Origin: Asterochloris sp. CNOR1
Taxonomy: Eukaryota > Chlorophyta > Trebouxiophyceae > Trebouxiales > Trebouxiaceae
Length of the DNA stretch: 64,000 nt
Assembly (NCBI GenBank): GCA_963969365.1
Contig: OZ017752.1
Span: forward strand, 992,001-1,056,000
Reading direction: 5' to 3'
A program made the translations under genes and the position numbers. This document shows positions 6,239 through 62,600 of this stretch, piece by piece. How positions within the stretch are numbered: position 1 is the first letter of the stretch; each line of letters begins with the position of its first letter. The notes below the pieces were generated by a model. That model made no database searches, was not told where the DNA came from, and saw only the letters and a program-made list of their open reading frames with translations.

Positions 6239-9200
6239 ATGCCAATTTCGGCCAGAAGTACACTGAGCGTGACTGTTTTCTGTTCCCTGCTGGCCTGGCT
6301 GCCTCATGGCCAGGCGCAGGCACCGTCACTGGCTTCAGCCATCAACGCAACCTTTGCAGGTCAGCCCAGACTGCATGGTGCCCTGTGTCAAGTCTGAAGA
6401 TGCTGCCAATTGTTGCTGCATCATCAGCTGGTAAACCTATGCATGACTGCAGGCCTTGATGTGCAGTCCAGCCCCTGCACTATTGGGCCAGAGTACTGGT
6501 GCGACGGTGTGGCATCCAGGGGGGTCCAGTGCGGCTTCAGCCCTGATATGGAAGTGAGTGGCCATTGCCTAAGTTCCTTTGCGGCCAAGGCCCAGTGCAG
6601 CATATAGGCATCACGCTGTGGTGGCTCTGCAGGTCTACCCATGCACAGGCAACAAGGAGTGCAGCAACATCACCATAAACAATTTTTGCGCGGACTACAT
6701 TGCATCCAACACCTACCAGGGCCAGCTGGCAGGCAGCCCTGCCGGGCTGTTCAACTCCTTCATTCTCTCGCTGTACTGGTAAGAGTGCACTTCAGGCCTC
6801 ATACAGAAGGCAGCGTGACGTGCAGGGCAGGGCAGTTGCTGCTGGTGCAGACAGGGCATAAAGTAACACAGCCAAGCGCTGCACAGTCCTCATCACTGGC
6901 CTGGTATTGTGCAGGGCACCCACACAGTGCAACGAGACTGACCCTGTTGGCCAGACGTTCTGCCTGGACTACACCACTCAGAACACTGGCATCAGTCAGC
7001 CACTTGTCATCCCCCAGATGCTGCTACATGGTGAGCCGAGCAACCTGCTTTCAGGCTCAGCATCACAGACGCCGTCTGTGCGCTCATTAAGCCAGGCCAC
7101 AAACCCTCCGGGTCCAGATGCAGCCTGATCTGCAACAATCGGGCCCATGCAGCTGCTGCAAGGGCGTGCCCGTGGTTGCTACTGTGCTGAAGGCATCTGC
7201 CCGTTGCGGCCTGGTCCGAAGCAGAAGGGCCCGCGTGCTGCAAGGCTGCTGATATGCTGATGGCACCTGTCTTGGTGCCACTTGGGAGCATCGCCCTGCA
7301 GGCCTGTGGCCCTACTTTGCGGACACTCCGGCGCTCATCAACAGCACCTCCAGTCAGCAGATCCGGCCGGTGCGCCGCCCATGCTGTCCAAGTGCACAAC
7401 CACAGCCCCGGCTTGACTGCCAGCACACAGTGCATGCAGCTGCAGCCCTGTCAAGTGGCCTCCACAGCCATTCAGCACCAAGTCTGCCTGCACACGTTGC
7501 ATGCGCCTGCAGCTGTCCAGCAGGCCAGCCTCACAGCAGCACCAGCTACCATGGCAGGCAGGTGCAGCTGTCACGTCTCCCTGTCCGAAGCAGCAGCGCC
7601 ACCTAGCCTGTGCCGTCCACTGCGTGCAGGCCCGTGCTGCCTACCCAACCTTCTGTGATGGGACCACGGGCAACTTCAGCCTGTGCCAGGTCTCTGGGCC
7701 CTTGTGTCCCGCAGTGACCCCCCAGAATCGCAACAAAGTGACACAGCCCCAGTACGACACCTGCATGGTAATCCCCCTCCCTCCCTGCAGGCCGACCTGA
7801 CGTGCTGCGCCCGCACACAGCTTCCAGGTCACTGCAGCCCTAGCCTCAGCTGCCTCCCTGGCTCAGCTGCCCACCGCTGGCTCCAGACTGTCTGCCTCCC
7901 TGAGGCAGCTGCATCCTTGGGCCAGCTGCCCACCACTGCTGCCAGGCCACCTGCCTCCCATGCTCAGCTGCCCACCACCTCTTCTCCCTGACCCTGGCAC
8001 CTGCCCTCTTCCCAACGCGGGCACATGCGCTGTCGTTGAGTCTGACCTGCTGCTGGGTGCTGCGCTGCAGATTGACTACAATGTTTCCCAGTGCCTGGTG
8101 GACAACAGCACACTGACCTCTGTGCAGTCTCTGCTCAACATCTATGCACCCAACCTGGCCGCGCCTCACACTCTGGGCCTCTCCCAGCAGTACGTCCAGC
8201 ATGGCTCATGTGAGCACCCTAACTGCTCAGCATCTAGCGCGTCCCACACATCTCCAGAGAAGTGGTGCATAACACAGCTGCTCTAGCTTTGCAGATCAGC
8301 AGCTCTGCAGCACTGCATGACTTTGCCCGTGCAGCTCTGCTTGCAGCTGCTGCCAGCCTATGCAGTCTTGCAGTTGAGCCTGATGCTCACACCTCAGTAA
8401 GCCCATGGTATTCGCAAAGCACCTCATCGCCGCCTTCCATAGGTACAAAATTCAGCGCCAGAGCTCACTTCCCGCGGACTATCTTGCAAGCATTGGCGTA
8501 CAGCCCGGTGGCAGCCTGGGGCCCTCAGCCCTGGCCCACCACCAGATATGATGTCCAAGCGCCAGTCCTCACCTTTCCCCAGCCACCTTGCAGGCATTGG
8601 CAGCACCTTGGGCGATTCAGCTCTGGCCTACTACCAGGTTGCCCTGCAGTGGGCAGTGCAGCTGACAGCGCCCGGCTCTGCAGCCGACGACGTCCTGCAA
8701 ACCCAGGCTGGCACCTCCATCAGCCCTGCAAACTTCACTGCAGCCTTCCAGGATCAAGCTGTGGCGCTGTGCAATGATGACTGCGAGATCGGAGAGGTCT
8801 ACTTCTGCATGGGCAGGGATGTGACTGGTGCACCCACAGGGCTCATTCAGTGCTCGCTTGGCATCCAGGCGCTGAGCAGCTGCGCACAGTGCCCTGAGAT
8901 CAGCATCCCAGAATATGCTGAGCCCCCGCCCATCGTGACCAAGGCAAGTGCTTCAGGCCATCTTTGACTGGGGTTGCCTGGGTGCTTACCAACCAGGGCC
9001 CTGTGCCCAGCTTCTGGAGCACACTGCTGCGCCATGTGCGATCAAGGCATGTGCTCTGTGAGGCCTGTTTGGCCTTGCAGGGGAAGCACGTCTGCAGCAT
9101 ATTGACGCACACCACTGACACGGAGCCCCTGCTGTCCCTCCTGCCGCCAAAGTGGCCGATTCTGCTTGTTGCTTGAAGCACTGCAGTGCTGCACACAACA

Positions 9201-59600: not shown

Positions 59601-62600
59601 CAGCAAGAGGGTGCTGTCAGAGCACAAGCTGAGCCGGCTGCAGTTTGAGTGGCTGCTTGGAGAAGTCAAGACACGCTTTGTGGGGGTGAGCCGTGCTCTG
59701 CAGAGCAAGGAAGCTCATTGAGCTTGGTTGGCAAGCTGAAAGCCTACTGCTGGCTACTTGAGCCTTGCCCCGTTGCTCTCTGTGTGGAATGGTGAGGGGC
59801 ACATAGAGGCAGCACCTTTGCGTTGAGTGCTTCAGCAGGGCCTCAAGCACATGTCTGCTGCTGCAGGCAATGGCTTTCCCTGGTGAAATGGTTGGCACAG
59901 TTGCTGCGCAGTCCATTGGAGAGCCCACCACTCAGATGACCCTCAACACTTTTCACTATGCTGGTGTATCTGCCAAGAATGTCACGCTGGGCGTGCCGCG
60001 ATTGACTGAGATCATGAACATCGCCAAGAACATCAAAACTCCCAGCCTTGAGGTGTGGTGCTGCCGCCATTGCGCTTGCTGCACCTTCAGGGCCTGCTCT
60101 CTCCCTGTATGCCATGTCTCCCTTACCTGCCTTCTTTGAGACATGGCCTAGAGCAATCTGCTCTTGCTGCATCCTACAGAGCACTTAAGTTGTCTGCAGC
60201 AGCACAGCAGCTGCATATTGTTCCAGGCGGCTGAGCAGGGGCATATGTGCACTCTCATGTTCTGCTCTGCTGTGCACTTTGTCTCTTTGTGCAATGCGGC
60301 ACCAGCTAGCCGGGGTGCCTGCATGAGCTCACAGAGCCTGACACAGCATGCAGGTGAATCAGCAACCTGCTTACCTTTTGCTGCCAGCCCTTTCGCCAGG
60401 GTGGCCTTCTCAATAGCTGCTCAAACTCCCAGAATGCTGGTCTGCTGCGCAGATTGTGCTGCAAGTCACCAACCCTGACGGCAGCGTGGGCTTTTGCCGC
60501 GATCGCGAGCTGGCCAAGAAGGTGCAGTGCCAGCTGGAGTACACCACGCTGCGCAGGGTCACTCAGGCCACCGAGATCCACTATGACCCCGACCCACGGG
60601 TGAGTCCCCTTGAGCCGCACAAGGCTGGACCATCACGGGTGTCCCCTAGCATGTGAGTGGCAGGACAGTCCTCTGCAAGACCTTTAGGGGGTTGAGCAGG
60701 GCAGGGCTGTCCCATCTTGCCTGCTGATTAGCAATGTCTGTAATCTGCCCGGCAGATTGCTGACGGACCCAGGAGTTTGCAGGCGCCTGTGCCATGACCC
60801 TGTCTGCAAATTCTAGGCTCCACCCTTCCTTGCTGTCTGCAGAGCACATACATTGAGGAGGACAAGTCATGGGTGGGTGACTACTTTGACATGGCAGACG
60901 CAGGGGAGGAGGGCATGCTGGACAGGATGTCCCCCTGGTTGCTGCGCATTGGTGAGGAGTGCACCCTGCCCCTCATGCCCAGCCATGTGCTTGTCTCTGG
61001 TGCTGTCCTGGAGAGTACTCAGAGGCTACACCTGTCTGTGATGCCCATCACAGTCAGGCTGGCGCCAATGTAGCTGTTGCACAGGGTGCCAACTCCGAGA
61101 TTGGTGACACCAGTTCTGGATGCTCAGCTGTCTTTTAGCCTCTGGCTTGCTCCTGAACCTTGCCTTGCGGCTGCTGGGAGCACTGTGGGAACATTTCAGT
61201 CCTCCTTGACATGTTCACTGCTGCTGTGCAGAGCTGGACAGGTCCATGTTGACGGATAAGGGGCTGACTATGAATGCAATTGCTGCCCAGATTACTGAGG
61301 AGTTTGGCGGGGAGATGCATGTGATCTACACTGATGACAATGCTGAGAATCTGGTCCTTCGGGTGAGGCATGCTTGTCTCAGGCTGATTCCATCTGCTCA
61401 CTCGGTCAGCAGGAGGTCAGCTGCGCTGCAACTCAATTGAATGATCTGTGTGTGATCCTGTCTTGCCGCTGCTGCCGCAGTGCTGCCTGCGGGGTCAAAT
61501 ACAACTGGCGCTCTTCAAACAGCAACTTCCGATGTGGCTGCTGCAGATCCGCATGCTGGGTGATGAGGGCAGCAAGGACGATGTGGGGCAGTACGACCAT
61601 GGTGACAATGTCTTCCTCAAGAAAATCGAGTCCCATCTTCTCACACAGGTGGGCAATGACCCCAGGTCATTGCAGCAATGGCAGCTTGCTGAGACTGACT
61701 GCTGAGCAAGCAAGTGGGTTAGCAGCAGCTGCGGCTGCAGGCTTATCCTGCAGCAGTGGCTGCATGCAGAGGGGGCTGCTCATGTCCAATCTGCTTGTGC
61801 CACCTTGAAGCAGCTGCATGCAGGATTGACTGCTGGCCACAGCTTTGGATGCCAGACAGCTTCTGAACAACACTTCTGCGCTGTCTGCTGCGGGCAGCAG
61901 GCCTGCTTCCCTGTGTCGCCTCTGAATGGGCTTTCTTTGGCTGTGTGCAGGTCAAGCTGCAGGGCATCCCTGGCATCAAGAAGGTCTTCATGCGCGAGAA
62001 GCAGGAGACCCGTCTGAATGCTGAGGGCAACTTTGATGTGGAAACTCAGTGGGTGCTGGACACAGACGGCGTCAACCTCGCAGGAGTGAGAGCAATTGCC
62101 CTTTGTGGCTGCTGCCTTTCCCTGATCACCGTCAAGGGTTGAGCCGCAATTCTATCTTGGACCGTTTGCCTGATGTGCCTCAAGTTCCGTGTCTAGAGCC
62201 TCTTCCTATACTGTGTTGTGCTCTATGTCACATGACCAGGCGGGCTGGCCAGCATCTTGGCAATCTATACCCCTGGCAGCTCAGGCTCTCCAAAAGACTT
62301 CTGTTCAAAATGCTGTGCCAGCCAGGTGGGGCCTGTATCAAGCCTGCAGCTCATTGGCAATGACGCAGACTGCTCCTACAGGTGCTTTGCCAGCCAGGCG
62401 TGGACGCGCGGCACACCACCAGCAATCACATCATTGAGATCATCAATGTGCTGGGCATCGAGGCTGCCCGCAATGCGCTCATGAAGGAGTTCAGGAATGT
62501 TATTGAATTTGATGGCAGCTACGTCAACTACCGCCACCTGGACACTCTGGTGAGCCCCAGCTGCTGCGCTGCAAGGCTGGCAAGTCATGCTTCCTGGCCA

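Follow-up and report, generated by a model that had tools for sequence, protein, structure and literature searches.

Exon echoes in an Asterochloris locus: likely relics of short local duplications placed without regard to splice sites

Introduction

Along a stretch of 64,000 nucleotides (nt) from the green alga Asterochloris sp. CNOR1 (contig OZ017752.1, positions 992,001 to 1,056,000; called the window below), sequence lying across a splice site is found a second time, in the same orientation, within the neighboring intron. Do these exon echoes mean that duplication is drawn to splice sites, and do they build new introns and exons? A sequence-only reading of the window had answered largely in the affirmative, proposing that small tandem duplications over splice sites recur and feed intron growth, new introns and duplicate exons. 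Our analysis points to another origin. We consider it likely that ordinary short local duplications, placed regardless of splice sites, left the echoes behind as relics.

Results

Direct repeats are in excess at short distances

After removal of low-complexity repeats, 15 ungapped direct repeats with a score of at least 16 were found in the window at offsets of 30–169 base pairs (bp), ten in the first and five in the second 70-bp bin counted from 30 bp, compared to 0–1 per 70-bp bin beyond these, up to ~1500 bp. Over offsets of 15–449 bp, 19 local repeats were counted against 0–4 per block in six control blocks (offsets of 2 to 17 kilobases, kb). Inverted repeats of the same minimum score within 30–169 bp numbered three. 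Small local duplications thus recur in this DNA, as the earlier reading had held.

The window is eukaryotic nuclear DNA with dense introns and a guanine-plus-cytosine content of 56–62 percent. Its gene models were predicted ab initio by a simple gene finder trained on the window itself; early runs that split the genes too much were not taken as final models. In the flank and register tests, introns shorter than 45 or longer than 900 bp, or with an exon shorter than 20 bp, were left out, and 114 were kept (129 without the exon-length filter). The median length of the 114 was 213.5 bp, and one predicted intron was GC-AG (24967–25309), all others of the set being GT-AG. The acceptor of an RNase T2-like gene was set at 8594 in the flank, placement, register, host-length and unused-acceptor tests, and ten bases off at 8604 in the 18-variant placement analysis (curated set), in the any-offset, protein-level and decoy-donor scans and for the median length.

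The exon flanks on both sides of the 114 introns resembled their own intron far more often than expected from comparison with the other introns: five cases against 0.5 at a score of at least 16, eight against 1.2 at 15 or above, four against 0.12 from 18 and three against 0.04 from 20. Since these counts lie far above expectation, the strong echoes are not due to chance, and the claim that echoes exceed the background is borne out. Once the expectation is subtracted from the counts at 16 and 15, echo-bearing introns make up ~4 to 6 percent. One of the five cases at 16 or above concerns a predicted 58-bp intron in the RPB1 region (51411–51468), whose model is uncertain. That the echoes as a whole are composition-matched noise is therefore very improbable: the weaker members, such as the one in LIP2 and several scoring 15–16, do lie near noise, given the 1.2 exon-intron matches expected from 15 upward, but the short-offset repeats and the matches from 20 upward refute chance for the strong cases.

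At the protein level, 116 introns were tested. Starts of downstream exons matched their intron in 11 cases against 4.2 expected at a score of at least 30, and in four against 0.74 at 36 or above; these four belong to a TMEM245-like gene (two), the RNase T2-like gene and an Mpv17 gene. For ends of upstream exons, the corresponding numbers were three against 4.1 and one against 0.66. The scan included a GYF-domain gene which has 11 in-frame stops after one hand-edited exon, so that its frames are partly wrong. As a baseline, the 152,615 bases of 13 other loci yielded 115 local repeats and 56 control ones, most of them in viral contigs; the six of these loci from the GTDB collection yielded five and one in 67,287 bases, next to 15 and one in the 64,000 bases of the window. 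None of them is a comparable eukaryote genome, and they were therefore left unused for inference.

Placement relative to splice sites resembles random placement

For the placement test, we took 26 non-overlapping repeats (score of at least 15, offset 30–200 bp), dropped three outside annotated genes and moved the remaining 23 within genes 2000 times. Ten of the 23 were echoes, compared to 8.8 ± 2.3 under random placement (P = 0.37). The other classes behaved likewise, with eight intron-intron pairs observed against 8.1, four exon-exon pairs against 4.4 and one mixed pair against 1.8. When threshold, gene model and region were varied in 18 ways, P ranged from 0.26 to 0.93, and in six variants with the corrected acceptor at 8594 from 0.16 to 0.53. 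The pair 46398–46455/46482–46539 was counted as an echo although its exon is doubtful, and it stands outside the feature and host lists.

The special link to splice sites, which the sequence-only reading had assumed, thus finds no support in this test. Splice sites are not special here; the echoes are the expected share of general short local duplications, and they are about as frequent as chance would have it because splice sites are dense in these intron-rich genes. Decoy donors did not stand out in this respect: among the 14 top-listed ones, that at 45491 lies within a local repeat classed as intron-intron, and another decoy donor, at 62326, lies inside the RPB1 echo stretch, away from its aligned site.

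Individual echoes differ in decay

One echo is a 62-bp head-to-tail duplication over an acceptor of the TMEM245-like gene on the minus strand (24924–24989/24986–25051; first exon base 24966; alignment score 38). The copy acceptor at 25028 is intact and scores 10.0, the real site 9.5. The copy had been called open and perhaps usable; splicing at its acceptor would insert a further 62 nt and put the gene out of frame. A second acceptor duplication in the same gene, ~116 bp apart (27489–27579/27602–27697, minus strand; first exon base 27561; alignment score 27), reads LPVTTLLVVLLPLHTV and LSVVARLLVLLPLHMV with a peptide score of 54. Its acceptor scores 7.7, whereas an AG is missing from the aligned position of the copy.

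In the TMEM135-like gene, the exon end at donor 29646 is covered by a ~91-bp duplication (29558–29640/29649–29732, plus strand; alignment score 41). The real donor scores 4.7 and the two copy positions −6.5 and −1.8, in agreement with the earlier description of this copy as donor-dead. The RNase T2-like gene carries a duplication ~104 bp apart over acceptor 8594 (8454–8545/8558–8637, plus strand; alignment score 23), where the real site scores 4.2 and the copy, which reads CAA, −0.1. Upstream of its exons, at 7845–7971, lies a separate repeat of about two 59-bp units with 75–80 percent matches.

Three aligned echoes are located in the GYF-domain gene on the minus strand. A 35-bp donor echo (donor 38383, within 38296–38406) at 76 bp distance keeps the GT in its copy (6.1 for the real site and 3.8 for the copy), an acceptor echo (39478, within 39443–39550) lies at 62–64 bp distance (7.7 compared to 0.4 and 2.3 at two copy positions), and a 27-bp donor echo (39967, within 39860–39985) at 99 bp distance keeps CAG/GTGC (6.6 and 5.0). 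The same gene contains two further repeats of other kinds. A near-perfect inverted repeat with 41-bp arms at 46671–46711, its partner ~75 bp downstream, was the strongest of the inverted scan (score 35) and might fold into a hairpin once transcribed or represent the remnant of a small mobile element; a 27-bp unit repeated 2.3 times at 48375–48435 overlaps a predicted intron.

In RPB1, on the plus strand, the alignment places an acceptor echo at 62382 with 72 bp distance (62295–62331/62367–62403). The copy acceptor is lost, scoring −6.2 against 6.1 for the real site, and the end of this echo coincides with that given in the earlier reading. A further aligned duplication in RPB1, ~77 bp apart (57037–57185, plus strand), is wholly intronic and not an echo. 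The LIP2 donor echo on the minus strand is weak, a 22-bp match at 189 bp distance (within 10016–10226; alignment score 16; donor 5.8, best of three copy positions 4.0). Pfam LplA-B_cat matches at 9990–10568, minus strand, and other LIP2 matches, at distances of 88 and 101 bp, reach scores of only 12 and 11.

Hence, of the echoes named previously, those of TMEM245, TMEM135 and the RNase T2-like gene align well, but LIP2 is left with one weak match. The second TMEM245 acceptor and the three GYF-gene splice sites were added here. The statement that the copies differ in decay holds, from the intact TMEM245 site at 25028 to the lost sites in TMEM135, RPB1 and the RNase T2-like gene. The distance of about 60–140 bp does not hold throughout: the LIP2 match exceeds it, and the Mpv17 copy at 14838 resembles an exon 414 bp off. 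The 62-bp TMEM245 and 91-bp TMEM135 copies abut or nearly abut. In three other pairs, namely the intronic one of RPB1 at 57 kb, the second of TMEM245 and that of the RNase T2-like gene, 7–22 bases separate the aligned copies.

A mobile, introner-like sequence that left the repeats behind is an extremely improbable source. The best matches of ten repeat units elsewhere in the window scored somewhat above a reversed-sequence control (E-values of 0.002 to 0.25 compared to 0.21 to 3.1), yet they were only 16–32 bp long, and no long second copy of any unit was found elsewhere within the 64 kb. The repeat offsets also vary from case to case. Within the window, the view that each repeat is private to its locus and that no mobile intron sequence lies behind the echoes was therefore upheld, and near-identical copies of the introner kind were not seen there.

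Intron growth finds mild support and intron gain none

If introns arose by tandem duplication, the contexts of donor and acceptor should be copies of each other in register. Among the 114 introns, none reached an in-register score of at least 12 (0.15 expected). One did so at 11 or above (0.43 expected), two at 10 or above (1.1) and eight at 8 or above (5.1). A comparison at any offset gave seven cases against 0.3 expected at 16 or above and was dropped, because the five top-listed introns are only 46–62 bp long and the compared windows overlap. The Rogers model, in which recurring splice-site duplications make new introns, is accordingly quite improbable for this locus, and the proposal that the echoes feed new introns was not sustained. 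True tandem duplications over splice sites are present in the alignments, the in-register similarity at the lowest threshold is slightly raised, and passages on a potato gene describe a duplication across an intron-exon boundary that led to a new intron (PMC4974935). Against this, strong in-register homology is missing, placement is indistinguishable from random, and the echoes lie within existing introns whose exon-side site is still used in the predicted models.

Intron growth fared better. The 15 introns hosting repeats, picked by hand from the repeat list, average 367 bp compared to 286 bp in a size-biased draw (P = 0.005); the eight echo hosts alone average 360 compared to 290 bp (P = 0.06). 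These data mildly support growth by duplication, as proposed before, and the greater length of the hosts fits existing introns growing by about one unit.

A probable duplicated last exon in the Mpv17 gene

On the plus strand, the Mpv17 gene has its usual last exon at 15252–15551 (99 amino acids plus stop, phase 0) and a candidate alternative last exon with a strong acceptor at 14838–14987 (49 amino acids plus stop, phase 0). They read IVWTVFLSTVTHT (14838) and IAWTGYLSILSHS (15252) in the same phase. Over 39 bases, 21 are alike (54%), second among 2872 CAG sites; over 45 bases, 21 are alike (third, with ties) and over 60 bases 28 (second, with a tie). By chance, ~0.2 to 0.7 of the 116 introns of the protein-level scan would reach a similarity like that of Mpv17, a case which had been chosen out of all introns by the earlier reading.

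The preceding exon alone matches the Mpv17 profile of Pfam with 50.6 bits. Adding the copy brings this to 63.8 (+13.2 bits) and adding the usual exon to 63.1 (+12.5 bits), whereas ten of the further CAG sites in that intron, of which 15 were listed, give 48.9 to 52.4 bits (−1.7 to +1.8). This contrast is a stronger argument than the protein-level similarity, though not independent of it. The acceptors score 9.3 (14838) and 9.5 (15252), whether they work being judged by score alone. Coding log-odds are weak for both exons yet favor the right frame, with 1.2 in frame against −19.1 and −5.2 in the other frames for the copy, and 5.1 against −25.4 and −39.3 for the usual exon. The sequence TGTAA is an algal signal. 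None lies between the 14838 exon and 15252, and the 14838 exon ends in its own stop.

The pair seems to go back to an ancient duplication of the last exon, separate from and older than the echoes. Both exons are probably used, now or earlier, as a neutral copy so diverged would be expected to lose its Pfam match; they may possibly occur together in one transcript. The idea that duplications feed duplicate exons is therefore supported at this one place. Literature retrieved on Mpv17 in connection with mutually exclusive exons comprised two papers, each with a single mention of Mpv17. Exon pairs described in parts of PMC9013439, PMC3228551 and PMC4378016, the last reporting mutually exclusive exons in a green alga (cyn23 of Volvox), resemble the Mpv17 exons, which likewise are homologous, adjacent and of the same phase with strong predicted acceptors, as in tandem exon duplication. 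In contrast to the similar lengths of mutually exclusive exons, the Mpv17 exons measure 150 and 300 nt including the stop, both are last exons, and the pair is known here from sequence alone.

The scores of unused sites also bear on whether the copies were kept for a purpose, offering a choice of acceptors or exons by which the products are regulated or varied. Among the 1799 AGs that lie within 129 introns, the copies in TMEM245 (25028, 10.0) and Mpv17 (14838, 9.3) hold the two top-scoring unused sites, ahead of 55324 (9.1); the rank of 14838 is slightly circular because the matrix was probably trained on predicted sites that included it. The good fit of the Mpv17 copy to its family profile points the same way. 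Yet among the nine listed echoes the site is lost in four copies and scores lower than the real site in four of the other five, use of the TMEM245 site at 25028 would cause a frameshift, the differences in the TMEM245 copy at 27602–27697 are mostly amino-acid-changing, and the Mpv17 copy shows weak coding statistics. Retention for a purpose is, on balance, unlikely.

Gene content of the window

Pfam names SAE2, LplA/B (LIP2), PDCD2_C, Mpv17, DAGAT, CAP-Gly, Rpp14/Pop5 and GYF proteins as well as a CREG/PNPOx plus DUF2470 protein. The matches of TMEM245 (AI-2E, E = 0.0077) and TMEM135 (E = 0.039) fall under the curated cut-offs, hence these two names are partly those of the earlier reading; the name RNase T2-like comes from it entirely, no Pfam hit supporting it. 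Searches with ARAGORN and Rfam found no transfer RNAs and no Rfam families in the window.

A large part of the RPB1 gene, with ~30 predicted introns, occupies 51000–64000, and its C-terminal repeat region begins near 63.7 kb and continues past the window end. Its identity is clear from a PDB search (best E = 7.6e-113). RPB1-like stretches 62–65 percent identical to the query also occur in small contigs filed as metagenome-assembled genomes of Betaproteobacteria and Neomarinimicrobiota (L008 and L009), which for this reason possibly represent eukaryotic contamination.

Discussion

It is observed in the window that direct repeats are in excess at short distances, that the best cases lie head to tail and that placement is indistinguishable from random. 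To explain them, we propose that short duplications, mostly 60–120 bp apart, hit genes irrespective of splice sites, the copying presumably occurring by replication slippage or template switching. Because exons are short and introns ~200 bp long, a random duplication would often cover an exon edge. The exon-side site would then remain in use, while the extra copy would turn into intron, lengthening it by about one unit. Later decay of the copy, which we take to be neutral, would leave spare donors and acceptors in all states from intact to lost.

Several points weigh against this explanation. At a score of at least 16, echoes lean above expectation (10/19 against 7.6, P = 0.16, the lowest variant), and with 23 genic repeats a preference for splice sites of 1.5-fold or less could escape detection. 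The gene models are our own ab initio predictions, made without RNA, and no algal relative that could date the duplications was among the loci found. Several weaker pairs align over 22–46 bp only, at offsets of 64–189 bp, and may be chance matches or spaced insertions, not full tandem units.

Tandem duplication is treated as an origin of introns and of duplicated exons in PMC3443670, PMC4974935, PMC2891723, PMC9013439 and PMC3228551. As in the potato case, tandem duplications here can span an intron-exon boundary; unlike there, strong in-register donor/acceptor homology is absent and there is no sign of a new intron. The same account also mentions an 83-bp intronic duplication in the potato gene that left its structure unchanged (PMC4974935). 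Novel intron positions in Drosophila, attributed in part of PMC2891723 to sliding or tandem duplication, likewise involve local exonic duplications with splice-site-like motifs, but there the copy became the intron, whereas here the copies lie inside existing introns.

The placement test distinguishes duplications targeted to splice sites from random ones in intron-rich genes and is applicable to any annotated genome. For the alga itself, we tentatively suggest a wider picture, which we hold to be possible rather than likely: a steady supply of duplications at 60–120 bp may bring spare splice sites, and Mpv17 may give two membrane proteins that differ late in the conserved domain by way of its two duplicated last exons. 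If expressed, the Mpv17 pair would be a further duplicated exon giving two products.

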